A stretch of DNA of 24,564 bases from a virus. The stretch spans positions 1 through 24,564 of IMG/VR virus record IMGVR_UViG_3300024265_000199; one strand, written 5' to 3'. A program made the position numbers and the translations under genes. The notes under the pieces are model-generated. The model was not told where the DNA came from and did not search any database. It saw only the letters and a program-made list of their open reading frames with translations. Every line of letters begins with the position of its first letter. Within the stretch, counting starts at the first letter, position 1. Positions 1,342 to 20,463 of the stretch are shown in pieces.

Positions 1342-1746
1342 ATGCTTAAGGTACACACAGATAGAACCGTGCTGCTTCAGTTCGGAGAACGAGACGGCCA
1401 AGTAGGGCGACGACTCGACGCCGAGTCAATGCGTGAGCTGCGCAAGTCCTTCGACAGCATACGTATGAACAGACACCGAGGCACATGGACATCCAGACTC
1501 ACAACAGAGGTACCCAATGGAGAGGACGACGTACTACCAGTCACGGAGCCGCAAGATAATAACGACAGTGCTATCATACCGTGTGGTGTTAAAGAACGTC
1601 ATCCCATTAAAGGACGGAGTGCCAATATGGTCATCCTCGATGATGTCTTGGAAGACACACCAATCTATGCGCCGCTTAAACTACGGCACCCCACTAAGCG
1701 TCAAACGATTGACGTTGGAGACTACATCCAACTGGACCTGATATGA
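1342..1746 (+). CDS. Hypothetical protein (134 aa)
   Basis: The frame opens at GTG 1327 (overlapping the previous stop), but ATG 1342 has a good GGGAG site 5 nt upstream and is preferred. The product is hydrophilic: an N-terminal MLKVHTDRTVLLQF strand-like segment, an arginine-rich helix (RELRKSFDSIRMNRHRG), then an acidic linker and a C-terminus ending in DVGDYIQLDLI. The stop overlaps the next ATG (ATGA). No family recognised. A second frame is open over its C-terminal half (1517-1741), but that frame lacks context and is treated as a shadow. Confidence 0.65.
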   Translation: MLKVHTDRTVLLQFGERDGQVGRRLDAESMRELRKSFDSIRMNRHRGTWTSRLTTEVPNGEDDVLPVTEPQDNNDSAIIPCGVKERHPIKGRSANMVILDDVLEDTPIYAPLKLRHPTKRQTIDVGDYIQLDLI

Positions 1747-1928
1747 GTAAGGAATACATTAAGGAATTGGAAATGGAACTGTTCGACCTCACTGCCAAGG
1801 TGATACACCTGATCGTAACAGGCCCCGGCTGGAGTGAGGACGACGAGTCATACACGTTCCCCAATGGGGACACGTGGCATCGCTTTGATCCGGGGCGTGA
1901 CACAAAGGGAGAACCAACTGATGGCTGA
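1743..1928 (+). CDS. Hypothetical small protein (61 aa)
   Basis: ATG 1743 overlaps the preceding stop by 4 nt. The N-terminal 25 residues (KEYIKELEMELFDLTAKVIH) form a probable amphipathic helix, and the C-terminal half is acidic and aromatic (GPGWSEDDESYTFPNGDTWH). Cytosolic, no family recognised. It overlaps the start of the next gene by 8 nt. Confidence 0.65.
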   Translation: MSKEYIKELEMELFDLTAKVIHLIVTGPGWSEDDESYTFPNGDTWHRFDPGRDTKGEPTDG

Positions 1929-2178
1929 CACCATTGAGAAAGACCTCGACAATGCTCAAGACCTCAAGGTTGACGAGCTGCTGCGTACCATAGTGGGGCA
2001 GATGTTCGAGGCAGACAACGACATGACCACGCTGTATGCTACGTTAGAGGCAGCCGACGGCACCACCAGTGAGCTTGAGTTCGTGGTACACGTGACCAAG
2101 ATCAATGGGGTGGAGACAAGAGCCGAAATAAACAAGCAACCAACCAACGAAGGGAGCGCATCCAATGGCGTCACTTAA
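1921..2178 (+). CDS. Hypothetical acidic protein (85 aa)
   Basis: The frame is open from 1834, but ATG 1921 has a strong AAAGGGAG-type site 8-14 nt upstream and a short overlap with the previous gene, so it is the chosen start. The product begins MADTIEKDLDNAQDLKVDEL (acidic helix), followed by a β-like segment (MTTLYATLEAADGTTSELEF, then VVHVTKI). The 3' end overlaps the CobS-like gene by 14 nt, suggesting coupling. Function unknown. Confidence 0.65.
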   Translation: MADTIEKDLDNAQDLKVDELLRTIVGQMFEADNDMTTLYATLEAADGTTSELEFVVHVTKINGVETRAEINKQPTNEGSASNGVT

Positions 2179-3271
2179 GGACCTGTATGACTCAGAGGTC
2201 ATCGACTCTATCGTCCGTAACTACTCGGCTGATGTGTCAGTGGATGGCCCACCAACTGAGCCGAAGGTGGACCCACTCACTCAGATTGCTGAGCCCAAGT
2301 ACACAGCCGACGAAGGTGAAGTCAAGTTCAGCTCTGTATTCTGGGAACCAACCACCATACCTGACCTGCCCATCCCGATGTTTGCCATCGAGGATTGGGA
2401 CGAGATAGCACAGCACCATATACCAGAGGTCAACCCCAACTGGGTGTGGGACAGGCCAGTGCTTGAGTCATTCGCATTGGCGATGGTCAGCAACGACACC
2501 ACCTTAATCCATGGACTACAAGGCACGGGTAAATCGTGCTTGCCACAGCAATGGTGTGCTGCATTGAACATCCCGTTCTGGCGTATGTCCTGCAACCGTG
2601 AGACAAGAGAGCAACACTTCCTTGGCTCACCCGGAGTAGAGCATGACGACAAAGGACAGATGTCCATCAAACAGGAACCGACCACACTTACCGACAGCCT
2701 TAAGTACGGTGGTGTCTTCTGTGAAGACGAAGCGTTCAGGCATAACTCGGCTCTCGTACTCCAAAGTCTGCGCGAGAAGTCCAACCGAACTGTCCTTCTG
2801 CCGGACGCGCCGGGTAGAACTGCGGACGAGCGTAAGCTGGTTGCCCCCAAGGGCAAGTGGTGGTATTGCCTCACTGATAACACAACAGGTAGTGGTGATG
2901 AAACCGGGATCTTCGACGCGGAAGTACAAGATGCTAGTACCCTCGACCGCATCGACTGCACTATAGAGGTTGACTACTTGGCCAAGGAGCATGAGTTCGC
3001 ACTCATGAAGAAGGCAAGCACACTCAATGACGACATACTCAGTGGCATGATCGACCTCGCCAAGCTGGTACGCAAGGCGTTCAAGAAGCAGACCATCATG
3101 TCCACTATCTCAGTGCGTGGCCTATTGGCTTGGGCTGAGAAGATCGAGGCAACACACAGCATAGGCCAGTCGCTCAAGCTGAGCTGGTACAACAAGCTGT
3201 GCACCAATGACCGACAGGTCGTTGAGGACATGTACCATCAGGTCTTCAGTAAGAAGATGGGAGACAAGTGA
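2165..3271 (+). CDS. CobS-like / MoxR-type AAA+ ATPase
   Basis: This 368-aa protein carries a complete AAA+ core: Walker A GLQGTGKS at residues 117-124, Walker B VFCEDE at 184-189, and a C-terminal region TGSGDETGIFDAE...STLDRID like that of CobS, the ATPase of the aerobic cobaltochelatase, and of MoxR-type chaperone ATPases. The first 90 residues are divergent and proline/acidic rich. It overlaps the next gene by one base (TGATG), and that gene encodes a VWA-domain partner, the classical pairing for MoxR/CobS ATPases, which remodel a substrate via the VWA protein. No chelatase large subunit (CobN) or other cobalamin gene is visible, so a cobalt-insertion role is unlikely or at least unsupported. 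CobS/CobT-like genes are known from cobaviruses and other marine phages with unclear function. Confidence 0.85.
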   Translation: MASLKDLYDSEVIDSIVRNYSADVSVDGPPTEPKVDPLTQIAEPKYTADEGEVKFSSVFWEPTTIPDLPIPMFAIEDWDEIAQHHIPEVNPNWVWDRPVLESFALAMVSNDTTLIHGLQGTGKSCLPQQWCAALNIPFWRMSCNRETREQHFLGSPGVEHDDKGQMSIKQEPTTLTDSLKYGGVFCEDEAFRHNSALVLQSLREKSNRTVLLPDAPGRTADERKLVAPKGKWWYCLTDNTTGSGDETGIFDAEVQDASTLDRIDCTIEVDYLAKEHEFALMKKASTLNDDILSGMIDLAKLVRKAFKKQTIMSTISVRGLLAWAEKIEATHSIGQSLKLSWYNKLCTNDRQVVEDMYHQVFSKKMGDK

Positions 3272-5154
3272 TGACCAGTACCGCAAAGAAACGAGTGGCT
3301 GGGTTGTATGCCAACATGCCGGACAAGCCCATAGCTGGGGTGTTCGACGTGGCTAACATCACATCCATTGTGCATCGACGATGCGCTGACCTCGGTGTGA
3401 ACTTGGTGTTCGACGAGCAAGGGGGCACGGCCCACACTGATGGCAAGACCATCACCTTACCTGCTTTGCACCAGCCCATCACTCAAGATCAACTCGACCT
3501 CATGTATGGGTACGTGATCCACGAGTGTGGTCACCACCTGCGGCCCGAGGCATTCAAGATACTGCACTCTGCTCAACCACCCGAGCACGTATGTGCTCTG
3601 TTCAATATCCTTGAGGATGACGGGATGGAGAGGGACCGTGCCAATGAGTGGCGGGGTGACTGCAAGGCACTGTCGCAGATGAACGAGATACTCATTGAGA
3701 AGATGGCCACCAACTGGGGCCAAGAGAAGTTCAACGATGCCATTGCTGGTAAGGAATGGAAGTGCAACAACCCCGAAGCAGTGGCTTCCTTATGCTTGGG
3801 GCAACTGTCCCGCCTTGAGTGGGACACCCAGAGTGACCACCAAATCAAACGCATGCTCGACATCATGCCGAAGAACGTCACCGACCTGCTTACTGAACTC
3901 ATTGATGAAGGGTGGGTCGATAAGTTTAGAGGCACCAAGACAGAGCAAGACACATGGGATCAGACTATTGACTTGGTCAAGAGGCTGTACCCCGGCAACG
4001 ACAAGAAAGAATACGAGAAGCTCCGAAAGGCGGGGCACAAGATGAACAAGAGGGCACGTGATGACAGCAAGGATAAACTACCACCCCAAGGGAAACCCGA
4101 ACCCATCAAGGGTGACGGTGATAAGGACGATAAGAAAGGTGAAGCAACGGCAGCGAGTGCCGACCCCGAGGCAGAGGGTAAGGTAGTACACTGGAAGGAC
4201 ATGGTACTCAGCGAGCACAAAGAGTGGACACCACGTGATGACAACGAAGCAGGCAACGTCGGCATAGATTGGGCTGGCATAGAGAGTGGGGGCACAGTAG
4301 GACTGATGCCCTTGCACATGATCAATGTCATTGACTTGAAGAACGAACCAGCCAACTACAATAGTACGCCGGGAGCAGTGCGTGCATACATGCCTTCGGA
4401 CGTAGCCAATGCACAGTTCGGCAATCAGATACGTCGGTACTTGCAAGCACTGGGTAGGTCACGAGTGTCTCGACACAAGAGGCACGGCAAGTTGGATCGC
4501 AGCTCCATCGTTAAGCTGTTGCTGCCACCCATAGATGGGGGCGACTACAACAAGAAGATATTCTACCAACAAGAGAAGCACACGATGAAGGACACGGCGA
4601 TCTTTGTCCTCACTGACTGGTCAGGCAGCATGAAGGGACCGAAGATGCGGTCGGCTGCTGATGCCAGCCAACGGTTGGTGTATGTGATGGAGCGTATCCT
4701 CAAGATACCAGTGGCACTCGCTTGCTTCAGCAACAGCGAGACAGAGTGTGACATTGGGTACATCAAGCCCTTCGGTACACGTGGGCTATCCGCTGAAGAG
4801 ATAGCACTACGCTTCGCCAAGTTCAGGAAGTACACATCAGCGAACAACGACGCTGACTCATTGCACTGGGCGTGGCACCAGCTACGCAAGCGCACTGAAG
4901 AACGGAAGATACTCATTGTGTTGAGTGACGGATGCCCTGCTGGGTCATGGATCGGTAGAGGGTACGACAACTTGCACTTCGTAGTGGACGCCATCACAAA
5001 GGATGGCGGCATTGAACTGTACGGTGTGGGTATCCATAGTGATGCGGTGAAGAAGTACTACCCGCACTACAAGATACTGAACTCACCCGACGAGATCAAT
5101 GCCACCCTATTCAATCTGATCAAAGACGGAGACAAGTTAAGGAGAAAACGGTGA
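3271..5154 (+). CDS. CobT-like protein: metallopeptidase-like domain + VWA domain
   Basis: 627 aa from ATG 3271 (GTG 3268 is an alternative), with GGGAGAC 6-12 nt upstream. The N-terminal domain contains HECGHH (84-89), an HExxH zinc-protease signature, and about 25 residues further on NILEDDGMER (112-121), matching the downstream glutamate seen in gluzincin-like and DUF2201/CobT-type proteins. A charged low-complexity linker rich in K, D and E follows (about residues 255-310). The C-terminal VWA domain has an intact MIDAS: D449-W-S451-G-S453 and a later SDG at 552-554. The family pairs with MoxR/CobS AAA+ ATPases, here the gene immediately upstream. The complex probably acts as an ATP-driven remodelling machine. 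Whether the HExxH site is proteolytically active is unknown. Calling it cobaltochelatase would be over-annotation. Confidence 0.82.
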   Translation: MTSTAKKRVAGLYANMPDKPIAGVFDVANITSIVHRRCADLGVNLVFDEQGGTAHTDGKTITLPALHQPITQDQLDLMYGYVIHECGHHLRPEAFKILHSAQPPEHVCALFNILEDDGMERDRANEWRGDCKALSQMNEILIEKMATNWGQEKFNDAIAGKEWKCNNPEAVASLCLGQLSRLEWDTQSDHQIKRMLDIMPKNVTDLLTELIDEGWVDKFRGTKTEQDTWDQTIDLVKRLYPGNDKKEYEKLRKAGHKMNKRARDDSKDKLPPQGKPEPIKGDGDKDDKKGEATAASADPEAEGKVVHWKDMVLSEHKEWTPRDDNEAGNVGIDWAGIESGGTVGLMPLHMINVIDLKNEPANYNSTPGAVRAYMPSDVANAQFGNQIRRYLQALGRSRVSRHKRHGKLDRSSIVKLLLPPIDGGDYNKKIFYQQEKHTMKDTAIFVLTDWSGSMKGPKMRSAADASQRLVYVMERILKIPVALACFSNSETECDIGYIKPFGTRGLSAEEIALRFAKFRKYTSANNDADSLHWAWHQLRKRTEERKILIVLSDGCPAGSWIGRGYDNLHFVVDAITKDGGIELYGVGIHSDAVKKYYPHYKILNSPDEINATLFNLIKDGDKLRRKR

Positions 5155-5378
5155 GCAACCAGACCGACGCATTCTTAGGGTTTCATACCATACACGCAGA
5201 CCCAGATGAGCCCGTGATATTGCCGGGAAATCTTGCAGAAAAATTAGCCACTCGTCCTGACTACATGAATGGACCAGTGCGTACGGCAACAGCCGACGAA
5301 CTCAAACAGTACAACGCTATCCTTAAGGACAAGGGTAAAGAGGCAGCCAAGCAGTGGCTGACTGAGCAATGGGCCTGA
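5151..5378 (+). CDS. Hypothetical small protein (75 aa, GTG start)
   Basis: GTG 5151 overlaps the VWA gene stop (GTGA) and is preceded by AAGGAGA, a strong ribosome binding site. The product starts MSNQTDAFLGFHTIHADPDE and ends in a helical, Lys/Glu-rich segment (DELKQYNAILKDKGKEAAKQ). No motif or family recognised. It overlaps the primase start by 10 nt, so it is part of the same translation unit and might be an accessory of either the AAA+/VWA pair or the primase; that is only a positional guess. Confidence 0.65.
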   Translation: MSNQTDAFLGFHTIHADPDEPVILPGNLAEKLATRPDYMNGPVRTATADELKQYNAILKDKGKEAAKQWLTEQWA

Positions 5379-6280
5379 AACTAGACTCGTACATGACTGA
5401 GATCGAAGACCTTGAGATAGGTGACACCGTGCGTCTCAATCATGATGACTGTGCCGCAGGTACAGACTCACGTCGCAGGTTGTACATCACTCGACCAGTG
5501 TCCAACCCCACTTCAGTGGTGGCGTACTGCCACAACTGCCAGAGTGGTGGGTTCTACGTTACTGGCCAGCACTCCGGGTTCAGACGCACCCGGCATGAGA
5601 ACACACCAGCTCAGAATGTAACCAAGGTAGTGGACTGCCTCTTGCCGCCACCTAATCTACTGGAGAACATAGATGATTGGCCGCTGCTTGCCCAAGCTTG
5701 GGCGTTCAAGGGCAGGCTAAATAAGAACTTGATCAAGGGGTACGGCATAGCGTACGACCCCAGTAGTGACCGTGTGTACATACCACGGTACGATTGGATC
5801 TCGAAGAGTGGTGACACATACTTCTTCGGTGACCTCAAAGGTTACCAGTTGCGGAACGTGGACCCAAGCAATAAGGTACCCAAGTACCTGACTGTTACTG
5901 CAACGGACGACACCGGGTTCAGCTTGTTGAAGGCAGAACGTGATCCCGCTGCTATCCAGTGGACACGTGCAGTATTGGTCGAAGACTTGTTGTCAGGGAT
6001 ACACATCGTCGAGGCCACACATGAGGGTGCAGTCGTGACCGTTGTCATCGTCAACTACGGGACACAAGTCCAGTTACCTGCGCTCCACGCTTGCTCATTG
6101 CGAGGGCATGCCACTGTGTGGCTGGACAATGACAGCAAGCACGTCATCGAACAAGCAGAACAGATGGCACGCACCATCAACATGATCCGTTCGCAGTGCC
6201 TCGTTCGAACAGTGCGTACGGAGAGTGATCCCAAGCACCATAGCTGGGATCAAATCAACACCATCTTAGGAGACACTTGA
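5369..6280 (+). CDS. T7-type DNA primase (zinc-binding + TOPRIM)
   Basis: This 303-aa protein makes RNA primers for lagging-strand synthesis. A compact N-terminal zinc site is suggested by HDDC (25-28) and CHNC (54-57). The central segment contains the primase core (VYIPRYD, YQLRNVDPSNKVPKYL). TOPRIM motifs follow: VEDLLSGIHI with Glu 205 and WLDND with D253/D255 for metal binding. It lacks a helicase domain, which is instead encoded by the next gene, unlike fused T7 gp4. Its stop shares one base with the helicase ATG (TGATG), so the two are translationally coupled. The family assignment is secure; subfamily level is inferred from motif order. Confidence 0.85.
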   Translation: MGLKLDSYMTEIEDLEIGDTVRLNHDDCAAGTDSRRRLYITRPVSNPTSVVAYCHNCQSGGFYVTGQHSGFRRTRHENTPAQNVTKVVDCLLPPPNLLENIDDWPLLAQAWAFKGRLNKNLIKGYGIAYDPSSDRVYIPRYDWISKSGDTYFFGDLKGYQLRNVDPSNKVPKYLTVTATDDTGFSLLKAERDPAAIQWTRAVLVEDLLSGIHIVEATHEGAVVTVVIVNYGTQVQLPALHACSLRGHATVWLDNDSKHVIEQAEQMARTINMIRSQCLVRTVRTESDPKHHSWDQINTILGDT

Positions 6281-7542
6281 TGGACCCCATTGACATTGAT
6301 ATCCTTAAGTACCTCTCGAAGAGAGAGAATTACAATGCCCTCAAGGACACCATAACCAAGAGCTTATGCGTCAAGGAAGCTTGGCGTATGCTCGCCGACT
6401 ACGGAGCATTCTTCGATGCGCATCCAAGTGAGAACGCAATCACGTCCGACTTCATACTGTGGCAGAGACTCCAACGGCATCCTCATTGGAAACCCGAGGA
6501 AGCACGTGTTCAAGGCGCGATTGTTCAGAACATACTGGATCACCCGGAACCGCAACGTACTGCGTTCCTCGATAACATTAACCACTTGCGTACACAAGGA
6601 GCCTATCAAGGAATCGCTGATGCCATGGCAGCAGGAACTATGGGATCGAACGATGCAGAGGATGCGGCACGAAAGCTTATCCGTACCGACAGTACCGCTA
6701 ATGTGATGACGAGCTACACGCTCGACGATATAGCCACCTTGCAAGGCAAGGGTGGGTACTACTGGAGACTCGAAGACTTGAACAAGAGCCTCGGCCCACT
6801 GAGGAAAGGGGACTTCATAATTGTAGGCAAGAGACCAGAGGTAGGGGGCACATCGTTCCTTGTCTCGGAACTCTCTTTCATGCTGGAGCAGACAGATGGC
6901 AACGCGATTATCTTTAATAACGAAGAAGCACCAAACAAAGTTTACTCACGTATGGTGTCTTCTGCCCTTGGAGTCGATCACCGTAAGCTCCTCGGTGACA
7001 CTGGTCTATATCAAACTCAATACAACGCTTGGCTCGGCACGTCCCGATGGGACCTTGTCCACGATACGAATATGGACATCGGTTCATTGCATCGAGCCTT
7101 AGAGGATAGAGACTATGATCTCATTGGTATCAACGTCTTGCTTAAGGTCAAGGGAACAGGTGCAAAGGAAGATCATGATAAGTTCCAAGCACTTGGTGAA
7201 GAGTGTCGGCGTATATCGCAGAAGTATGGACCCGTCATCGCTATCGTACAAGCTGATCCTAGTGCTGAAGGCATGCAGTACATCCCCCAAGACCGCATCT
7301 ATAAATCTAAGACTGCGCTGCAAGGTGAAGCAGACGGACTGATCATGATCGGCACCGACGAGCTGATCAAGGACACAGTGCGGTACATACACGTGGCCAA
7401 GAACAAGCTACCACCTGCCATATGTACAGACACAAGGTTGAAGCACATACGTAGTGAAGTCAAGTTCGACTTCGATACGGGACGCTTCACTTCAGCCAAC
7501 TACAAGAAGAACAGCCGACCGGGTAAGAGGAAGACCAAGTAA
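6280..7542 (+). CDS. DnaB/gp4-like replicative helicase with altered Walker motifs
   Basis: 420 aa from ATG 6280 with AGGAGAC upstream. The N-terminal ~160 residues are helical (DnaB-N-like position). The RecA-like core begins at LGPLRKGDFIIVG. The P-loop reads GKRPEVGGTS (183-192): the usual lysine of G-x4-GK-T/S is Gly190. The hydrophobic Walker B strand reads DLIGINVLLKV, with Asn285 where family members have Asp. Other motifs remain: FNNEE (212-216, catalytic Glu region), IVQAD (H3-like Gln), SKTALQGEADG and the late KNK motif. Position between primase and polymerase fits a replication helicase. Either this protein hydrolyses ATP with unusual chemistry, serves as a non-motor loader/scaffold, or has been inactivated. 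No frameshift is present. Confidence 0.8.
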   Translation: MDPIDIDILKYLSKRENYNALKDTITKSLCVKEAWRMLADYGAFFDAHPSENAITSDFILWQRLQRHPHWKPEEARVQGAIVQNILDHPEPQRTAFLDNINHLRTQGAYQGIADAMAAGTMGSNDAEDAARKLIRTDSTANVMTSYTLDDIATLQGKGGYYWRLEDLNKSLGPLRKGDFIIVGKRPEVGGTSFLVSELSFMLEQTDGNAIIFNNEEAPNKVYSRMVSSALGVDHRKLLGDTGLYQTQYNAWLGTSRWDLVHDTNMDIGSLHRALEDRDYDLIGINVLLKVKGTGAKEDHDKFQALGEECRRISQKYGPVIAIVQADPSAEGMQYIPQDRIYKSKTALQGEADGLIMIGTDELIKDTVRYIHVAKNKLPPAICTDTRLKHIRSEVKFDFDTGRFTSANYKKNSRPGKRKTK

Positions 7543-9446
7543 TGGACATACCTTTTTGCGTAGATTTGGAGACCACAGTGAACGGTGGTCCCCAAGGTGA
7601 CAGCCCCGAAGCACACTGGCACAACAACAAGGTGCTGCTGTGCGGGTGGTACTGCGCCAAGCTGGGCAGCCCCATCCAGATAGACCCTACACCCCAGCGG
7701 CTAATGGATGCCATGGGTCATGTCATCAAGCAAGGCCATACCCCTGTCATCATAGCACACAACGCCAAGTTTGACATCAAGCACTTGATGCAGTACCGCA
7801 GTGATGACACGTGGACCAAGGTTAAGGTGTGGGACACCATGACTTGGCAGTACCGACACAGCGGACACGACGACAAGTTCATCAGCTTGGATGCACTGTG
7901 CTCAATGAACAACGTCAACTTTAAGAAGACGTTGGACCTCGGCGCATTGCTCGACAGCGGTGTGAAGATGGAAGACATACCCATCGACGACCTGAAGACG
8001 TACTTACGTGGGGATGTGAAAGCATTGGTTGATCTGCATGCCCTCCAGCTTGCTGACGCTACGTACGACATGGACTACATCATCCCGCTATCCTCAATGG
8101 AACTCAACGGGTTGTACGTGGACCAGAAACTCTGGCACCATGCGTTCATGAAGAATGATATCCAAGTGAAGCAGCAAGAGAAAACAATGCAAGACCACAT
8201 CATGCAATGCTGCGAGTGGGTGAATGATGGCAGCCCTGTCATACCGGCTGACTTCACTGACACTGTGGGACTCAAGTCCAAGTACGTCAAGGCGTTCAGT
8301 CGCCGGACGCTGTCGTTCCTATGGACGGGGGTACCAGCTCAGCTACCCATCACAGCCAAGTGGAAGCTCGGGTACAAGGACGGGTTCACCCCGTACTACC
8401 GTACGCCTCAGATACCACCCCACTTCAAGAACCCGACCAACCTCGGGTACGTCATCGACGACCCGGTACTCAAGGCTGACGGGAGCTGGATATCCAAGTG
8501 CGTGCAACTGCACCGGCATGCTGCCAAGGTGGTGAGTACGTACCTCACCCCATTCTGGGAGAGTATGCAGTGCCAGAACCGTACCGTCCACCCGAAATTG
8601 AACACGACAGCCACGTGGACAGGGCGTTTGAGTAGCTCCGGACCCAACGGGCAAAACATTCCTGAAGAAGTACGGAACTTAATCACGAGTCCGGTGTCTA
8701 ACACTGTGTATGAGATAGATTTTAAGCAGTTGGAAATGGTAGCGGTAGCTTGCGTATCGGGTTGCCCCACCATGATCGCCGCCTTGAACAGAGGCGACGA
8801 CCTGCACTATCTGTCCGGCAAGACGGTTATGGGGTGGAACACACCCGCTGACATGACAGACAGTGATCGCAAGATCGTGAAGGCTGTCAACTTCGGAGTA
8901 CTGTATGGTGGCAAGGCAGCAGGGTTGGCCAAGTCAACCGGCGTAGCCAAGGCCAAGGTCCAACGGATCATTGATTCATTCTACACCACGTACCCCGGAG
9001 TGGGTAAGTGGCAGATGAAGATGTTCGAAGATGTGGTTGACAACATGTACCCATATCGAATCACTCAAGGAGTACAACAGTATGCCTCTATGTACACGCT
9101 GCCCCTATCGGGACGCTTGTTCAAGTTCGTCGAAGGAGAAGCACCAAGGTGGGTCCAACGCAAAACAGGAAGACCGTTCTCGTTCAGCCCCACCCACACC
9201 AGCAACTATCCCATCCAAGGATTCGCTGGCGGGGATATAGTTATGTATGCTCTGTCATGGCTTTGGCGTAACCAAAGCCTCATGAGATTTATACTTACAG
9301 TACATGATAGTATAATCATAGAGAGTTCTCTGTCAGAGTCCCATGTTCAAGACCTCGTAGATCAGATGTGCGTAGCAACACAAGCACACTTCAACCTTCC
9401 TGTCAGTCTGCACTGTGATGTGGACGGCGGGACACATTGGAAGTAG
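7542..9446 (+). CDS. Family A DNA polymerase with 3'-5' exonuclease
   Basis: 634 aa, starting at an ATG that shares a base with the helicase stop (TAATG). The N-terminal DEDD proofreading domain has VDLET (D8, E10), AHNAKFDIKHL, and YLRGDVKALVD. The polymerase domain shows motif A DFKQLEMVAVA (D393), motif B KIVKAVNFGVLYGG and motif C VHDS (H588-D589). Motif B has Phe at the dNTP/ddNTP-selectivity position (E. coli Pol I F762 type; T7 has Tyr). Length is close to T7 gp5 (about 700 aa) and all catalytic residues appear intact, so it should be the phage replicase. A short AT-richer patch occurs at about 9235-9330 but does not break the frame. Confidence 0.92.
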   Translation: MDIPFCVDLETTVNGGPQGDSPEAHWHNNKVLLCGWYCAKLGSPIQIDPTPQRLMDAMGHVIKQGHTPVIIAHNAKFDIKHLMQYRSDDTWTKVKVWDTMTWQYRHSGHDDKFISLDALCSMNNVNFKKTLDLGALLDSGVKMEDIPIDDLKTYLRGDVKALVDLHALQLADATYDMDYIIPLSSMELNGLYVDQKLWHHAFMKNDIQVKQQEKTMQDHIMQCCEWVNDGSPVIPADFTDTVGLKSKYVKAFSRRTLSFLWTGVPAQLPITAKWKLGYKDGFTPYYRTPQIPPHFKNPTNLGYVIDDPVLKADGSWISKCVQLHRHAAKVVSTYLTPFWESMQCQNRTVHPKLNTTATWTGRLSSSGPNGQNIPEEVRNLITSPVSNTVYEIDFKQLEMVAVACVSGCPTMIAALNRGDDLHYLSGKTVMGWNTPADMTDSDRKIVKAVNFGVLYGGKAAGLAKSTGVAKAKVQRIIDSFYTTYPGVGKWQMKMFEDVVDNMYPYRITQGVQQYASMYTLPLSGRLFKFVEGEAPRWVQRKTGRPFSFSPTHTSNYPIQGFAGGDIVMYALSWLWRNQSLMRFILTVHDSIIIESSLSESHVQDLVDQMCVATQAHFNLPVSLHCDVDGGTHWK

Positions 9447-9458
9447 GAGTATTATTCA

Positions 9459-10031
9459 ATGGCACAACCCAACGCAACAGCAACACATGTCATCAAGGGC
9501 GTAGTAGATAGCGTCTTCACCAAGCAAGTCACGACTCGCTTCGGTGACAAGCAAGTCCATCACGCCAAGGTAGATAGCATCGAGTTCAGCACAGGCTTCA
9601 AGCAAGTCGTGCAAGCCGGTGAAGTTATCAATCTACCTGTCGCATGGCAGTACGGTAACTGGCAGTACGTCGAGACACCTGACGCACTGCGGGACACCTT
9701 GCCCATGGTGACGGCAGCCGAGACGGCAGCAGCAGCACCAGCAGCAAGCGGTGGTGGTGGTAGTGGTGGCCAGAAGAAGGGATACGGTAAGTTCCCGGTT
9801 GACCCACTGGATGGCCAGATGTCTATCATCAGGCAGAACAGCATGAACCGTGCGGTTGAGATCCTTGAGAACATGATGACGGCATCCCCGGCACTGTTCG
9901 CACCCAAGGATGAAGCGGAGTACCTCAAGAAGTTGATCGAGGTAGCACTCACGGTCACTGACTTCAACTCGGGTCAGGATATCATGCAGCTTAAGGCAGC
10001 ACAAGCGGCCAACCTTGCGGCAGCAGCGTAA
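9459..10031 (+). CDS. Probable ssDNA-binding protein (OB-fold-like)
   Basis: 190 aa, ATG 9459 with TAGGAG upstream. The N-terminal ~75 residues (HVIKGVVDSVFTKQVTTRFG, then DKQVHHAKVDSIEF) show the alternating strand pattern of an OB fold. There follow an Ala/Gly-rich linker (about residues 87-107, polyA then GGGGSGG) and a helical C-terminal domain ending in a polyalanine stretch. Location directly after the polymerase and before a recombination nuclease is typical for a phage SSB. It lacks the acidic C-terminal tail of T7 gp2.5 and E. coli SSB, so the assignment rests on fold pattern and context. Confidence 0.5.
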   Translation: MAQPNATATHVIKGVVDSVFTKQVTTRFGDKQVHHAKVDSIEFSTGFKQVVQAGEVINLPVAWQYGNWQYVETPDALRDTLPMVTAAETAAAAPAASGGGGSGGQKKGYGKFPVDPLDGQMSIIRQNSMNRAVEILENMMTASPALFAPKDEAEYLKKLIEVALTVTDFNSGQDIMQLKAAQAANLAAAA

Positions 10032-10322: not shown

Positions 10323-11225
10323 ATGCCAGCCATCGAAACACTGAGCAAGGATATCTACACCATCCTTGATCAGCGAGTGCAGCATGCGCCTAACTCTGAG
10401 CTTGCCGCTGCCTATGCCATGCGCATAGGTGGCGAGCTTGCCAAGTCCACGCTCCCACGTAACAGGCCCCGAGAGAAGGGCAAGATGTGGGCGTCGGACC
10501 TTGGTAAGACTTGCTTGCGCCAAGCTTGGTACAACTTCAACGCACCGCAGTACGGTGAGCCTCTCAATGGGCAGACCAAGTTCAAGTTCCTATATGGGAA
10601 CCTGATTGAAGAGGCAGTGCTGTACCTTGCCGAAGAGGCAGGGCACACCGTCACCCACCCGCAGTACAGGGTGGAGCATACCGTCAACTCTGATTGGAAG
10701 ATCAGTGGTAAGATAGATGGTTGCATTGACGGCACACTGATGGACGTGAAGAGTACGTCCAGCTTTGGGTTCAAGCGGTATAAGGATGGGATCAACGCAA
10801 CGAACGATTCGTTCGGCTACCGGTTCCAACTCGGGTACTACAAGGGGTTCAACGACATAACCCCGGCTCCCAAAGATACAGTGGGGTTCGTTTGGATTGA
10901 CAAGCAGAATGGGCACATCAAATACACACCGTGTAGTGTGCCATCACGTTCTGTTATCACCGCTAAAGCTGCGCAAATTATCACCGCAATTGACAAGACA
11001 GAGGATGACGTGCTTCGTGGATACACCACTGAGCCGTACGGCAAATCAGGTAACATGAAATTACGTGTCGGCTGTTCGTACTGTCCTTATAAAGAGCGAT
11101 GCTACAAGGACTCTAACCATGGCAAGGGCTTGCGTACGTTCCTATACAATCAGGGACCGATCAGCTTCGCGGAAGTAGCGAGGGAGCCTAAGACACAGGA
11201 GATAACACGTGGACAAATCGCTTAA
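10323..11225 (+). CDS. PD-(D/E)XK nuclease, Cas4/RecB-like with Fe-S cysteines
   Basis: 300 aa. The nuclease core is visible as GKIDG (Asp132) followed by LMDVKS (D141, K143), the D...D-x-K arrangement of RecB/Cas4-type nucleases, with YRFQLGYYKGF as the downstream Gln/Tyr motif. One cysteine near the N-terminus (C64, in TCLRQAWY) and three near the C-terminus (C251, C254, C260 in CSYCPYKERC) match the four-Cys 4Fe-4S cluster layout of Cas4 and AddB. There is no CRISPR nearby, so the likely role is DNA end resection in phage recombination or nucleotide scavenging from host DNA. The upstream stop lies 1 nt before its ATG. Confidence 0.85.
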   Translation: MPAIETLSKDIYTILDQRVQHAPNSELAAAYAMRIGGELAKSTLPRNRPREKGKMWASDLGKTCLRQAWYNFNAPQYGEPLNGQTKFKFLYGNLIEEAVLYLAEEAGHTVTHPQYRVEHTVNSDWKISGKIDGCIDGTLMDVKSTSSFGFKRYKDGINATNDSFGYRFQLGYYKGFNDITPAPKDTVGFVWIDKQNGHIKYTPCSVPSRSVITAKAAQIITAIDKTEDDVLRGYTTEPYGKSGNMKLRVGCSYCPYKERCYKDSNHGKGLRTFLYNQGPISFAEVAREPKTQEITRGQIA

Positions 11226-11646: not shown

Positions 11647-12013
11647 GCAAATACCCATCTTCAGTGGGTTCCTCTCGTACTTCCCTGATGCAGTGGCAGC
11701 CGTGGCGGCGCACTCGTTCCAAAGCAACGAGCAGCACAACCCCGGTGAGCCCTTGCATTGGGCAAGGGAGAAGTCAACGGACCAGCTTGACGCTCTCGCT
11801 CGCCACTTGACTGAGTTGGCCATGCTCGGGGAGAACCCCCGGCTATCCGTGAAGATTCAGTTACTCAAGGCCATAGTGTGGCGTGCAATGGCTGAGTTGC
11901 AACTGACATTGGAAGAGTGGTTCAGGTTCACAAAGAAGACCCTTGCCGATGGTGACGTACGCAAGTACGGTGCTGTGTCCGACGAGTACCAACAGACGGG
12001 CGACATGTCGTGA
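11615..12013 (+). CDS. DUF5664-like putative dATP/dGTP diphosphohydrolase
   Basis: 132 aa, GTG start with AGGAG 9 nt upstream. The segment FSGFLSYFPDAVAAVAAHSF, NEQHNPGEPLHWAREKSTDQ and DALARHL resembles the DUF5664 / dATP-dGTP diphosphohydrolase N-terminal domain widespread in phages: an all-helical protein with conserved His, Glu and Asp that bind metal. The C-terminus is helical (KAIVWRAMAELQLTLEEWF). Being next to the DUF4406 gene supports a shared nucleotide-pool function. Family assignment is from memory of the motif; enzymatic activity is inferred. Confidence 0.62.
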   Translation: MPLPTSSKERKQIPIFSGFLSYFPDAVAAVAAHSFQSNEQHNPGEPLHWAREKSTDQLDALARHLTELAMLGENPRLSVKIQLLKAIVWRAMAELQLTLEEWFRFTKKTLADGDVRKYGAVSDEYQQTGDMS

Positions 12014-12501
12014 GACGTGGTCGCCGACGCAGTGGCATGAGGTCCGGTCTTGAAGACCGGATAGCCAAGGACTTAGATGATGCAGACGTTAAGTATGAGT
12101 ACGAGTCGATCCAATTGGAGTACGACGAATGCTTACGTAAAAACCTTGCACGATGTGGTGATTGTCAAAGCAAGAACCTATTGCGGACAGGTTGGTACAC
12201 GCCCGATTTTGTTCTGGATTCTGGGCTCGTCATTGAGACCAAGGGTTACTTCGATGCGGCTGATCGCAGAAAGATGCTCGCAGTCATCGAACACCATCCG
12301 GATCTCACCATCGTTCTACTCTTCGAACGTGACAACAAGATCAGAAAGAACAGCAAGAATCGTTACTCGGATTGGTGCTTGAAGAACGGCATCGACTATT
12401 CAATCGGAGAACTGAAACCGGAGTGGCTGAGCTATGTCAAGCCGACTGACGCGGGAACTGAACATAACAGCAATAGCAATGAGGGCGACTCGAATGGCTA
12501 A
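12010..12501 (+). CDS. T7-like endonuclease I (Holliday junction resolvase)
   Basis: 163 aa, GTG start overlapping the previous stop (GTGA). The layout matches T7 gp3: basic N-terminus then RSGLED (E15), YTPDF (D66), VIETKG (E76, K78) and the C-terminal YSDWCLKNGIDYSIGELKPEW, equivalent to T7's YGEFCEKHGIKF region. The PD-(D/E)XK residues are all present. The enzyme resolves branched DNA before packaging. Compared with T7 gp3 there is an insertion just before TPDF with cysteines (C40 region, CGDC at about 50-53), possibly a small zinc knuckle. The 3' end overlaps the next gene by 8 nt. Confidence 0.88.
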   Translation: MRRGRRRSGMRSGLEDRIAKDLDDADVKYEYESIQLEYDECLRKNLARCGDCQSKNLLRTGWYTPDFVLDSGLVIETKGYFDAADRRKMLAVIEHHPDLTIVLLFERDNKIRKNSKNRYSDWCLKNGIDYSIGELKPEWLSYVKPTDAGTEHNSNSNEGDSNG

Positions 12502-12739
12502 GAGAAAGGCAATACACAGACGCATGTGGTTAGCACCCAATGACTGTGACTCCATGGCATCGGTGAAGTACACCATCGACAGCTACTCCGACCAAGGGGA
12601 AATGGAAATCAGCATCGCTGACTGCTACAAGACGATCAACTTAACACTGAACAATCGAGCAGACCAACGCAAGATTCAAAAGCTGATTGACTTCCTCAAG
12701 GAAGCAATCGAAGTACATGTGCAGGAGCGCAACGCATGA
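12494..12739 (+). CDS. Hypothetical protein (81 aa)
   Basis: The frame is open from about 12434, but ATG 12494 with GAGGG 8 nt upstream gives a short overlap with endonuclease I and is preferred. The N-terminus is basic (AKRKAIHRRMW), the middle β-like (SVKYTIDSYSDQGEMEISIA), the C-terminus helical (KIQKLIDFLKEAIEVHVQ). No family recognised. ATGA overlap with the next gene supports coupled expression. Confidence 0.65.
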   Translation: MAKRKAIHRRMWLAPNDCDSMASVKYTIDSYSDQGEMEISIADCYKTINLTLNNRADQRKIQKLIDFLKEAIEVHVQERNA

Positions 12740-13500
12740 GAAAGAAACACAACATGAGGATACTGACGTTGGATATCGAGACGATGTACGCCATCGTGCA
12801 CACTTGGTCTCTGTTCCCCAACTTCATCAGTCCTAACGATGTGATCGCACCGGGCTACACCCTGTGTTGGGCAGCCCGATGGGAGTTCGAACGTGAAGTC
12901 ATGTTCGGACGGATGGACACAGCCGCAGGGTTGGAGAATATCTGGGCTCTATTGGACGAGGCTGATGCAGTAGTCACGTACAATGGCAAGTCCTTCGACA
13001 TGAAGCACTTGAACAAAGACTTCGCAGTGGCAGACCTACCACCCCCGTCATCGTACCACAACATCGACCTATATCAGACGGTGAAGCGTCGGTTCAAGTT
13101 CCAGTCCAACAAGCTGGACTTCGTAGCACCTGCCCTTGGGCTGGGCCGCAAGGTCAAGCACCCCGGCATGGAACTGTGGGACAAGGTGCGAGCCGACGAT
13201 CCCAAAGCGTGGCGTTTGATGGAACGGTACAACAAGGGTGACGTGGTGTTGACACAAAAGTTATACCATCGCATCTTGCCGTGGATAGTGGACCACCCCA
13301 ATGTGGGCCTCTGGGTAGAGAACACTGGCAAGCCGGTGTGCACCCACTGTGGATCGAAAGACTTGCAGAACAAGGGCAACCAGTATAACACCAAGGTCGC
13401 ATCGTACAAGCGGTACAAGTGCCGGAACTGTGGCACCCAGTTACGTAGCCGCTTCACCACTCGACCGAGGGATCACACCCTCTTGACGAATACGCTCTAA
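12736..13500 (+). CDS. DEDD (RNase H-like) exonuclease with C-terminal zinc ribbon
   Basis: 254 aa. The N-terminus ILTLDIET (D13, E15), the second motif VVTYNGKSFDMKHL and the third YNKGDVVLTQ are the acidic motifs of a 3'-5' exonuclease / YprB-like RNase H superfamily domain. The C-terminal 45 residues add a zinc ribbon: CTHCGSKD and CRNCGTQ separated by a short loop, likely for nucleic-acid binding. This domain pair occurs in many phages; substrate (DNA or RNA) is not established. A second Met (codon 7, ATG 12754) could be the start, but the ATGA overlap favours 12736. Confidence 0.8.
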   Translation: MRKKHNMRILTLDIETMYAIVHTWSLFPNFISPNDVIAPGYTLCWAARWEFEREVMFGRMDTAAGLENIWALLDEADAVVTYNGKSFDMKHLNKDFAVADLPPPSSYHNIDLYQTVKRRFKFQSNKLDFVAPALGLGRKVKHPGMELWDKVRADDPKAWRLMERYNKGDVVLTQKLYHRILPWIVDHPNVGLWVENTGKPVCTHCGSKDLQNKGNQYNTKVASYKRYKCRNCGTQLRSRFTTRPRDHTLLTNTL

Positions 13501-14931: not shown

Positions 14932-15035
14932 TGACCGAGAACGAAATCGCTCAACTCACCGAGCTGATGATGCGCATCGCCAATGCTCTTGAGAACATCG
15001 AGTGCAACTTGAGACTATCGAGGGCGGGTCAATGA
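14931..15035 (+). CDS. Very small helical protein (34 aa)
   Basis: ATG 14931 in a TAATG junction and stop in an ATGA junction (15032-15035). The peptide (MTENEIAQLTELMMRIANAL...) is a single amphipathic helix. Its length makes it uncertain on its own, but the perfect coupling to both neighbours supports translation, at least as a coupling peptide. Confidence 0.5.
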   Translation: MTENEIAQLTELMMRIANALENIECNLRLSRAGQ

Positions 15036-15757
15036 AGCACGAAGGCGTAGAGTACCCCGACGGGGACGAGCTGATCACCAAGGGTGATCAAATCATGATC
15101 GACATTGAGACATTGTCGTCGGCTTCCAATGCGGCCATCGTGTCCATCGGTGCTTGCAAGTTCAGCTTGGACGAGGGGGCAGAGTATGCCAGCCCCGCTG
15201 ATTCGTTCCTTGTGGGCGTGGACCCCACGTTCTACGGCACAGTGAGTGTGCCTTGGGCTTTCGATATCAGTGAACGGACCTTGAAGTGGTGGAACGAGCA
15301 GAGCCAAGATGCGAAGGACTCACTCAAGATCAACCAAATGTCCTCCATAGGGGCAGCCTTCAGACATCTGGAAGTATGGTTGTACACGGTAGGGTTCGAG
15401 AAAGATCCCAATCCGTTCGGTGCAAACGCATCACGGATCTGGGCTTTCCCCCCTTCCTTCGACCTTGTCATCCTGCGCAATGCAGCGAAGCACATCTATG
15501 GTAGCACGAATGAAGTGCCATGGCATTACAGGCAAGAGACTTGCGCTCGTACCCATGCTTGGATCTTCGAAGATCTCAGTAAGCTGGCATACCAAGGGCG
15601 CAAGACCAACGGGCTGCTATCTGGGTTGACCGCACACAGAGCAGACCACGACGCAGTGCGTCAAGCACGTGTCGTTCAATTCATTGAGAGGGAGAGGCGC
15701 AATGGCCAAGAGGACAGGGAAAAGCAAACAGCTAAGGCGGCGAGTAAAGCAGCTTGA
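15032..15757 (+). CDS. DEDDh 3'-5' exonuclease, DexA / Rv2179c-like
   Basis: 241 aa from ATG 15032. The motif IMIDIETLS (D24, E26) near the N-terminus, FPPSFDLVILRNA (D144) and HRADHDA (H202, D207) make a complete DEDDh set in the order of the T4 DexA / Rv2179c exoribonuclease-like family; the WW-N-EQ segment after DISERTLK is also typical. It would trim 3' ends of nucleic acid; DNA versus RNA preference cannot be told. The C-terminal ~25 residues are charged (ERERRNGQEDREKQTAKAAS) and overlap the following gene by 56 nt. Confidence 0.8.
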   Translation: MKHEGVEYPDGDELITKGDQIMIDIETLSSASNAAIVSIGACKFSLDEGAEYASPADSFLVGVDPTFYGTVSVPWAFDISERTLKWWNEQSQDAKDSLKINQMSSIGAAFRHLEVWLYTVGFEKDPNPFGANASRIWAFPPSFDLVILRNAAKHIYGSTNEVPWHYRQETCARTHAWIFEDLSKLAYQGRKTNGLLSGLTAHRADHDAVRQARVVQFIERERRNGQEDREKQTAKAASKAA

Positions 15758-15915: not shown

Positions 15916-15941
15916 GGGACCCGTTCGGGTCCCTATCTTTT
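15916..15941 (+). terminator. Intrinsic terminator for the rightward (early) unit
   Basis: GGGACCC (15916-15922) and GGGTCCC (15927-15933) form a perfect 7-bp stem with loop GTTC, followed on the + strand by TATCTTTT. The T run overlaps the stop codon of the convergent SPFH gene. Confidence 0.82.
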
Positions 15942-16467
15942 ATATCTCCCCAAAGATCTTGAACGTACGCGCACGCACGATGCTCTGGTATTTGAATGTC
16001 GAAGCGGTGATGCCCCACTTGCGGGCTTGCTTTTGTATCGCTTTCTTAATCTCCGTTCGGCACTCAGGTGTCTTGATGTACTCCCAGTCCTCGGACTCGA
16101 CCATGTCTTGAATGATCCCGAGGGCTATATCGCCCAACGTGTCCTCTGCATCTTCAACGTCACAGATTGCTTTCCGTATGTCGAAGATAGACCACATCAG
16201 CACACCCTTGACAACGATATCCTTACCGTCTCCCGTTGTCAGTGCTTGCTCGTCCAACTCTAATGCTGTGATCTTGACGTTCATGGTGTGGACTTCGTCC
16301 AATGCGAACGGAAGAATCAACCACCAACCGGGCTTCAGTACCCGTCGGAACCTGCCTGTTTGCAGTACTACTGCCTCTTCCCACTCGTCAATAAAAGTCA
16401 AGAACTCAAACCAACCCCAGATCTCCTTGATCACTTCCCATGCGCCGGTAATGAAATCGGTACTCAC
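15940..16467 (-). CDS. SPFH / Band 7 (stomatin-prohibitin-like) membrane protein
   Basis: 175 aa, GTG start with GGGAG 7 nt upstream. The core EAVVLQTGRFRRVLKPGWWL (31-50), ILPFALDEVHTMNVK and LTTGDGKDIVVKGVLMWSI follows the SPFH consensus (V-x-R-x-G-x...PG-x-h-hh-P-F-x-D; T-x-D-G-x-x-V). The N-terminal ~28 residues (WEVIKEIWGWFEFLTFI) form an aromatic amphipathic segment that likely sits in the inner membrane in place of a normal transmembrane helix. The family's long C-terminal coiled coil is missing, as length is short. Host SPFH proteins (HflK/C, QmcA) scaffold membrane microdomains and restrain FtsH. As the last gene after the spanins it probably acts at the membrane late in infection; its role is unknown. 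Confidence 0.8.
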   Translation of the reverse strand: MSTDFITGAWEVIKEIWGWFEFLTFIDEWEEAVVLQTGRFRRVLKPGWWLILPFALDEVHTMNVKITALELDEQALTTGDGKDIVVKGVLMWSIFDIRKAICDVEDAEDTLGDIALGIIQDMVESEDWEYIKTPECRTEIKKAIQKQARKWGITASTFKYQSIVRARTFKIFGEI

Positions 16468-19341: not shown

Positions 19342-19845
19342 TCAGTGTGACATTATTTGTTGCGTGGGTTTGCAGTTGTACAGTTCTCGCCATTCCTCGA
19401 CGTGCCGTATGTAGGGGGCAGATGTTCCGAGTTCGTCGGCGTACTTGTTGGTGTAGTCCATAGCCTCGTACTCAATGAGGCAAGCTAAGCTCTTATCGTA
19501 GCCGTCGCCCTCCACTCCATTCAGCTCTTGCATGTAGTGGACTTGTTCGTGAAAGATTGTGAGCCACACTTGGGTGAGTGTCTCGCCTTCGTCTATCCAG
19601 ACGATGGGTGATCCGTAGTAGTACACACCGTAAGCTCCCATCATTTCTCCCACTATGGGAGACCGGCGTACTTGCGGTGTGGTCTTCTGTTTGATGTCGT
19701 AATTGGTCAGCCGGGTAGCAGCTTTCCAAGTGATGCGTGCTATGCGTTGATCTTGTTCGAACGGTGAAGCTTTCTCGTATGTCTGTAAGCCAAGGTGCAA
19801 CAACAAGATAAAGAACAATGCAGTCCAGAATCTTCCGCGTGCCAC
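19342..19845 (-). CDS. Membrane-anchored HExxH protein (putative metallopeptidase)
   Basis: 167 aa from GTG 19845; the frame stays open up to 19905, so the start is uncertain. The N-terminus has a signal-anchor helix (WTALFFILLLHLGLQ, 7-21), placing the rest in the periplasm. The centre has FHEQVHYMQE (HExxH with H99, E100, H103) and, 22-24 residues later, CLIEYEAMDY with Glu125/127 as candidate third zinc ligand. It looks like a gluzincin-type zinc protein. The location between lysis/virion genes suggests cleavage of an envelope protein or peptidoglycan-linked target, but no substrate can be named. No close family is recognised. Confidence 0.6.
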   Translation of the reverse strand: MARGRFWTALFFILLLHLGLQTYEKASPFEQDQRIARITWKAATRLTNYDIKQKTTPQVRRSPIVGEMMGAYGVYYYGSPIVWIDEGETLTQVWLTIFHEQVHYMQELNGVEGDGYDKSLACLIEYEAMDYTNKYADELGTSAPYIRHVEEWRELYNCKPTQQIMSH

Positions 19846-19849
19846 GACG

Positions 19850-20083
19850 CTACCGTTTGATCCTGTCGTTGACCAGTAGGTCCACTTTGGCTTCCATGTT
19901 GCCAAGGGTACGGACTAACGTCCGTGTGTCCCTGTTGTACAGCTCGACGTGAGCGTCCAGCTTATGACTCACTCCGTTCAGCTTCTTCTGCTGCCCGTTC
20001 AATCCCACCTTGACACCCCCAAAAGCGGTTGCTCCCGCTATCACCCAAGGTGCCAGCATCTTTATTATTACCATGTATTCCAT
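19850..20083 (-). CDS. Small membrane/coiled-coil protein (77 aa)
   Basis: ATG 20083 shares a base with the endolysin stop (TAATG), with GGGAG upstream. One N-terminal membrane helix (APWVIAGATAFGGVKVGL, about 11-28) is followed by a heptad-rich coiled coil (KKLNGVSHKLDAHVELYNRD to VDLLVNDRIKR). This layout resembles XhlA/Bdr-like holin accessory or spanin-like proteins, and being just downstream of the endolysin suggests a lysis role. The evidence does not separate holin partner, i-spanin-like or other. Confidence 0.6.
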   Translation of the reverse strand: MEYMVIIKMLAPWVIAGATAFGGVKVGLNGQQKKLNGVSHKLDAHVELYNRDTRTLVRTLGNMEAKVDLLVNDRIKR

Positions 20084-20463
20084 TACAACTCCCTTGGATC
20101 AAGCTCGAAGTGTGCGAGATCCTTGATTGATCTGAAATGACCGCCCCACTTGATCCGCACGTTTACGCGGATCGCAGCGGCCATTATAATAGTGGCGAGG
20201 AAATAGAACTCCGCGTCACTGGCCTTGAACCCCTTCGGATAGGGGATTACGTCGAACGCTCGGCTCGGCATCACGTTGTGCCGTGACTGGCCGAACCTTG
20301 CTTTGGAGTTACCACTACGAAAGGCACGTTCTTGCTCGTCCCTTCCACGGTACCCCCAGATTACTGCAAAATTATAGAGAATGATGGCCTCGTCAAGCAC
20401 CAGTTGGAGCTTGACATGACACTCACCCCGGCACCGTTGTGACTTGGCTCCGAAGCTGGCCAT
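20083..20463 (-). CDS. Endolysin, peptidase M15 (VanY/L-Ala-D-Glu type)
   Basis: 126 aa. Zinc-site motifs of M15 peptidases are present: SRHNVMPSRAFDV (H62, D71) and DLAHFEL (D115, H118), after the characteristic YRGRDEQERAF segment. It would cut peptide cross-links in murein at lysis. No signal or membrane segment, so release depends on a holin. It begins at a TAATG junction with the upstream virion gene. Similar small phage M15 enzymes are the T5 endolysin and relatives. Two cysteines near the N-terminus (RCRGEC) are unusual but of unknown meaning. Confidence 0.85.
   Translation of the reverse strand: MASFGAKSQRCRGECHVKLQLVLDEAIILYNFAVIWGYRGRDEQERAFRSGNSKARFGQSRHNVMPSRAFDVIPYPKGFKASDAEFYFLATIIMAAAIRVNVRIKWGGHFRSIKDLAHFELDPREL

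Follow-up and report, generated by a model that had tools for sequence, protein, structure and literature searches.

A CobS/CobT-like gene pair in a phage replication operon carries a conserved zinc-metallopeptidase-type motif and is probably mislabelled as a vitamin function

The window analysed here is the 24,564-base IMG/VR virus record IMGVR_UViG_3300024265_000199, for which a DNA-level search returned no close relative among phage records and Rfam gave no match. On its + strand, a gene for a CobS/MoxR-type AAA+ ATPase is followed by a gene for a CobT-like partner, upstream of genes for a primase, a helicase and a DNA polymerase. The partner combines a von Willebrand factor A (VWA) domain and its metal-ion-dependent adhesion site (MIDAS) with the motifs of a zinc peptidase. 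The features of the pair are as follows; model quality is given as the predicted local distance difference test (pLDDT) and the predicted template modelling score (pTM).

2165..3271, + strand: CobS/MoxR-type AAA+ ATPase, 368 aa (AAA_5 3e-7, CbbQ_C 2.4e-4, PHROG_249 1.4e-39)
2513..2536, + strand: Walker A, GLQGTGKS in the translation; G117, G120, G122 and K123 invariant in the alignment
2726..2731, + strand: Walker B, D188-E189, invariant in the alignment
3268..5154, + strand: CobT-like protein with an N-terminal zinc-peptidase-type domain, an acidic linker and a C-terminal VWA domain (CobT_C 7e-18, PHROG_1576 7e-42)
3268..4053, + strand: N-domain of the CobT-like protein, modelled alone (pLDDT 92.6, pTM 0.87)
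3520..3534, + strand: HECGH (H85, E86, H89) within the full HECGHH, on helix 73-90; invariant in 45 homologues
3604..3630, + strand: NILEDDGME (N113, E116, D117, E121) of the motif NILEDDGMER, on helix 106-127; candidate third zinc ligand
4615..4629, + strand: MIDAS motif DWSGS (D450, S452, S454), invariant in 60 phage and 30 cellular rows

The CobT-like open reading frame (ORF) encodes 628 aa from GTG 3268 or 627 aa from ATG 3271. The latter is the most likely start, and with it the junction AAG TGA TG ACC contains a one-base TGATG overlap between the two genes. Residues are numbered here from GTG 3268, so that H85, E86 and D450 correspond to H84, E85 and D449 counted from ATG 3271. An earlier annotation of this DNA, the sequence-only reading, had described a MoxR/CobS-type ATPase coupled by a one-base overlap to a CobT-like VWA partner with HECGHH, NILEDDGMER and an intact MIDAS, using the second numbering; the ORFs, domains, junction, motifs and residue numbers were all confirmed.

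The ATPase retains the AAA+ positions N239, R262 and R318 and, with both Walker motifs and the sensors intact, is a member of the MoxR/CobS clade. It matches the CobS chains of solved cobaltochelatases at 1.5e-20 and scores 84.3 bits against TIGR01650, for which the curated cut-off is 558.55. Its partner scores 36.8 bits against TIGR01651, for which the cut-off is 759.05, so that neither protein reaches the curated equivalog level of the corresponding cobaltochelatase subunit. The C-terminus of the CobT-like protein is assigned to Pfam CobT_C/VWA, and its MIDAS is complete, the remaining elements being N526/D528 and SDG 553-555. A profile of 45 phage homologues aligns along the whole CobT of the solved structure 9uka (9uka_G, E 5.8e-66), and phage and cellular CobT are therefore full-length homologues.

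It is in the N-domain that the phage proteins and true CobT part. As single-sequence queries against viral contigs, the window's CobT-like and CobS-like proteins found no relatives. Searching phage records with tblastn located the pair in Vibrio ICP2, Rhizobium, SSU5-like, Stenotrophomonas, nickie-like and Roseobacter phages, and an alignment of phage CobTs used as the query recovered 304 relatives in viral contigs, with 80 loci kept. All 45 aligned homologues share H85, E86, H89 and D117 at a mean column identity of 24%, which excludes a chance origin of HExxH. Among 60 non-redundant phage proteins (58 scorable rows), H85 is present in 55, E86 in 56, H89 in 55 and D117 in 57. The cellular comparison comprised 30 full-length CobTs from Alphaproteobacteria, all over the curated CobT cut-off. 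None of the 27 scorable rows contains HExxH, the D117 position is mostly Gln, and DSMAL of 9uka aligns to the phage HExxH, while every MIDAS residue is invariant in the phage and cellular sets alike. Judged by sequence, HExxH with its downstream acidic ligand marks the window protein as being of zinc-metallopeptidase type, and the intact HExxH/NxxED separates it from the cobaltochelatase-type N-domain without a metal site. In an unrooted tree built from the VWA domain alone, the true CobTs group in a single supported clade next to phage rows; 59 phage rows carry the zinc site, and about six changes of the site are required. Some relatives encoded on contigs of bacterial genomes, Firmicutes among them (L107, L112, L118), contain HExxH as well.

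The model of the full CobT-like protein (pLDDT 84.5) has its best PDB matches in NorD VWA domains, followed by the MIDAS domain of midasin. In the N-domain model, helix 25-41 precedes strands 45-49 and 61-65, which make up a small beta unit. Two neighbouring helices then carry one motif each, HExxH close to the end of 73-90 and NxxEDxxxE within 106-127. A helix, strands, an HExxH helix and then an acidic helix is the order seen in zincins.

The second line of evidence comes from the genes that follow the pair:

5151..5378, + strand: small ORF, 75 aa, which joins the CobT-like and primase genes via overlapping start and stop codons; poorly conserved
5369..6280, + strand: DNA primase-like protein (PHROG_47 1.9e-13)
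6277..7542, + strand: DnaB-like replicative helicase (DnaB_C 1.6e-8, PHROG_19 2e-25)
7542..9446, + strand: family A DNA polymerase, PolA (DNA_pol_A 2e-49)

The whole + strand run, a translationally coupled operon with overlapping stop and start codons, consists of two small ORFs, the CobS-like and CobT-like genes, a small ORF, primase, helicase and PolA. Synteny was examined at 50 non-redundant loci in which the pair is followed by 4 kb or more of sequence. The two genes are on the same strand at all 50, in either gene order, and at 46 the first 2.4 kb downstream include the start of a primase, helicase or polymerase gene on that strand, again with both gene orders. By a rough estimate, which the non-independence of the loci further qualifies, a pair placed at random in a genome of ~45 kb would be so positioned in ~5-10% of cases. 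The placement of the pair before primase, helicase and polymerase (genes at 5369, 6277 and 7542) and its co-occurrence with replication genes, both raised by the sequence-only reading, thus hold, and the neighbourhood recurs in unrelated phages. The neighbouring polymerase is PolA in the window and in ICP2 and Pol III alpha in the Rhizobium, Cyrano (SSU5-like), Stenotrophomonas, hairong and PhiR41_1 phages; gp46/47 and gp45/gp44/62 flank the pair in T4-like phages. The cyanophage core gene annotated 'peptidase' encodes a homologue of the window CobT (463 phage records matched, 429 over at least 80% of the length), which in S-8S53, P-SSM2, P-SSM7 and ACG-2014d carries HEVGHA, NVxEDxRIE and DWSGS. 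This sequence evidence favours the name peptidase over the view that it is a mistaken annotation of cobT (2021, PMC8651126). Beyond phage records, ~990 plasmids, mostly from Klebsiella, Escherichia and Acinetobacter, match a phage CobT and are likely SSU5-type phage-plasmids. The phage protein has also been mixed up with the unrelated CobT dimethylbenzimidazole phosphoribosyltransferase, both in the record of one locus (L004, 5684-7792) and in the paper on CRP-810 (PMC11288001).

On balance, we lean towards reading the pair as a replication-linked phage MoxR/VWA remodelling machine with a zinc-metallopeptidase-type module that does not serve cobalamin synthesis; the usual 'vitamin' (CobS/CobT) label is probably wrong. 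A machine that remodels and cuts is the simplest reading because a NorQD-like layout is combined with a catalytic-type zinc site in the N-domain, and the invariant Glu of HExxH argues for catalysis. For NorQD, cryo-EM and biochemistry led to the proposal that the MoxR ring rotates the VWA finger, stretching the linker to the partner's N-domain (PMC13036017). In the phage pair, the CobS-like protein would form an AAA+ hexamer on which the C-terminus of the CobT-like protein would dock via its VWA domain, and the MIDAS may grip an acidic or extended part of the substrate. ATP hydrolysis would then twist and stretch the acidic linker between the VWA domain and the N-domain, as proposed for NorQD, and the strained substrate would be handed to the N-domain. 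There, a Zn ion coordinated by H85, H89 and either E116 or D117 as the acidic ligand could promote its cleavage, with E86 as general base. It is plausible that the pair acts as such an ATP-gated protease. The replication synteny points to a replication-phase substrate, and the target most likely belongs to the early or replication-phase proteins. It could be a component of the phage replisome or primosome that has to be processed or turned over, or else a protein of the host that serves replication or defence. The CobS hexamer, zinc binding, cleavage and the substrate are the parts of this scheme that we infer. A dedicated defence or toxin role was considered and rejected, as no support was found for it; PADLOC defence models matched neither protein.

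A broader claim, which we put forward tentatively and regard as somewhat doubtful, is that phage 'CobS/CobT', including the core pair of T4-like cyanophages and the pair of SSU5-type phage-plasmids, represents a single, widespread AAA+-driven metalloprotease associated with replication, and that cellular CobT descends from such a protease via loss of the zinc site.

Several observations weigh against the pair being a replication-linked machine with a peptidase-type module. Pfam assigns no peptidase family to the window N-domain, and those of its relatives give scattered weak metallopeptidase matches only (Peptidase_Mx 6e-4, MPTase-PolyVal 0.04); a PDB profile search with the N-domain found nothing significant. 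Foldseek with the N-domain alone gave no significant PDB match, to a zincin or otherwise, and no hit better than E 0.5, for which reason the claim of a zincin at the level of the fold was dropped. The zinc site expected by the sequence-only reading is compatible with the model, which places the motifs on adjacent helices, but a zincin fold was not independently matched. Replication genes are missing from the neighbourhood at four of the 50 loci (L005, L069, L075, L078), and the synteny could partly stem from shared descent of early regions. Finally, HExxH was lost while the pair or CobS and the MIDAS were kept in Stenotrophomonas BUCTxx99, nickie-like hairong, L041 and L065. As several phage lineages keep the pair without the zinc site, cleavage is not always needed and remodelling alone can suffice. 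This persistence is what would be expected of a MoxR-VWA chaperone without relevant proteolysis, in which the metal of the N-domain is structural or meant for delivery and the pair matures a phage or host metalloenzyme such as ribonucleotide reductase (RNR), or remodels the replisome, in the manner of NorQD, CbbQO and RavA-ViaA. The closest folds, which are the VWA domains of NorD, midasin and relatives, and the twisting mechanism of NorQD are in keeping with such a chaperone. We nevertheless consider it unlikely, given that the catalytic Glu is as conserved as both His residues (56 of 58), whereas a purely structural site would not need it.

About equally unlikely, in our view, is that the two are auxiliary metabolic genes, with phage CobS and CobT joining host CobN in an aerobic cobaltochelatase that supplies more cobalamin for B12-dependent nucleotide reduction; such hijacking of CobN has been proposed (2021, PMC8651126). 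Both proteins are homologous to solved cobaltochelatase subunits, CobT over its full length. Further, the RNRs encoded by close relatives of the window depend on adenosylcobalamin (RTPR or NrdJ type), those in L155-L162 being divergent and under the RTPR cut-off, which keeps the cobalamin explanation alive. However, the scores of both proteins lie far under the curated cut-offs, and the zinc site kept in phages is absent from true CobT. The sequence-only reading had noted that no cobalamin gene is present, and this stands for CobN, for which neither the window record nor any of 37 carrier phage records gave a match. The carriers also include phages of Escherichia coli, a host in which CobN was not found (14 control genomes examined); E. 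coli MG1655 is the host of PhiR41_1. RNR large-subunit matches occur in 22 of the 37 carrier records, with none in ICP2 or CRP-810, and the pair is present in phages with a B12-independent class Ia RNR (SSU5-like Cyrano, cyanophage S-8S53) or with none detected (ICP2). A demand for B12 thus exists in the window's clade, but without a general link to the pair. The sequence-only reading had also stated that cobaviruses carry similar genes. One Cobavirinae record does have the pair; the founding paper, in which cobaviruses are named for a cobalamin-dependent RNR, makes no mention of cobS or cobT. As a separate observation, the Caulobacter vibrioides control genome, and likewise G013 and G015, contain a cellular CobT with no CobN found in the same genome, and such orphan cellular CobST pairs may do something besides cobalt chelation. 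Least probable of all, and in our estimate very improbable, is a machine for virion assembly and processing that acts late in infection by remodelling and cutting structural proteins, the role proposed for the same architecture in jumbo phages (Iyer et al. 2021, PMC7824862), where tail assembly in an archaeal virus was also reported to need a MoxR-VWA pair. The window pair is instead on the replication arm, with structural and lysis genes on the opposite strand, and pairs sit with replication genes across lineages.

The remainder of the window has lysis, structural and tail-type genes on the - strand and the following additional features on the + strand:

1743..1928, + strand: small ORF, 61 aa, first in the coupled run, with its stop codon overlapping the next ORF's start; matched by phmmer in 10 related loci
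1921..2178, + strand: small ORF, 85 aa, overlapping the CobS start; phmmer matches in nine related loci; no PHROG or known family
9459..10031, + strand: conserved gene of the replication module, 190 aa; besides the window itself, related loci give 36 matches downstream of the polymerase
10323..11225, + strand: Cas4/RecB-type exonuclease (PHROG_1990 1.2e-31)
12010..12501, + strand: phage endonuclease I, T7 gp3-like (PF05367 9e-29)

In a search for a third conserved partner gene, both small upstream ORFs proved to be kept only in close relatives. The product of 9459..10031 is possibly a single-stranded DNA-binding protein. Two further exonuclease-type proteins are encoded on the + strand, an RNase H/DnaQ-like 3'-5' protein with a C-terminal Cys cluster (12736-13500, 9.7e-14) and an Rv2179c-like 3'-5' protein (15002-15757, 1.9e-28). 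Adjoining the lysis genes is an SPFH/Band 7 (stomatin/prohibitin-like) protein (15940-16467, - strand; Pfam 2.1e-14, no PHROG match), an unusual phage cargo. A 187-aa protein at 19342-19905 (- strand) contains FHEQVHYMQE, another HExxH, with a weak DUF3920 match, and is a possible second metallopeptidase; beside it lies an M15-type endolysin (20083-20463). The large protein at 20463-21998 (- strand) has the polyvalent-protein domain LPD23 (2.9e-10) and is possibly an internal virion or ejected protein.

In 2010, cobS was counted among the core genes of cyanophages under 'vitamin B12' (PMC3037559), and its function in phages is still stated as unknown (PMC9983427). The present data show a genuine, conserved peptidase motif that sets the phage proteins apart from true CobT, and the pair accompanies replisome genes in phages of three different replication systems. 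What was assumed to be a metabolic gene in abundant marine phages and enterobacterial phage-plasmids becomes a testable protein-remodelling or protein-cutting machine with exact residues to mutate. The sequence-only reading had called it a candidate uncharacterised machine; the machine is not undescribed, since a pair of MoxR and a VWA protein with an N-terminal metallopeptidase was already reported in jumbo phages (Iyer et al. 2021, PMC7824862). New here are the way in which the phage proteins differ from true CobT, the recognition of what the cyanophage 'peptidase' is, and the synteny with replication genes in lineage after lineage; open-access text searches, of incomplete coverage, found no paper linking phage CobT to zincins.

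Among known systems, the aerobic cobaltochelatase CobT (TIGR01651; PDB 9uka) and CobS (TIGR01650) share the AAA+/VWA two-protein organisation and the MIDAS residues. However, true CobT works with CobN and no longer has HExxH or the Asp of NxxED, and the window pair scores far under the curated cut-offs. In NorQ/NorD, as in CbbQ/O and RavA/ViaA, a MoxR AAA+ ring likewise drives a VWA partner, and the NorD VWA domain is the best fold match. The clients of those systems, however, are respiratory or metabolic enzymes, and the NorQD paper mentions no zinc site (PMC13036017). The jumbo-phage pair has the same domain architecture and partner, a likeness drawn from architecture; it was proposed for virion assembly, whereas the window-type pair goes with the replication operon, in podovirus-like phages among others. 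The T4-like cyanophage 'peptidase' (T4-GC 146) and cobS (T4-GC 150) offer a homologous CobT-like protein with HEVGH, NVxEDxRIE and DWSGS, near CobS and replisome genes. They differ from the window pair in having a few small genes between the two and, as neighbours, gp46/47, gp45 and gp44/62 in place of primase, helicase and PolA.

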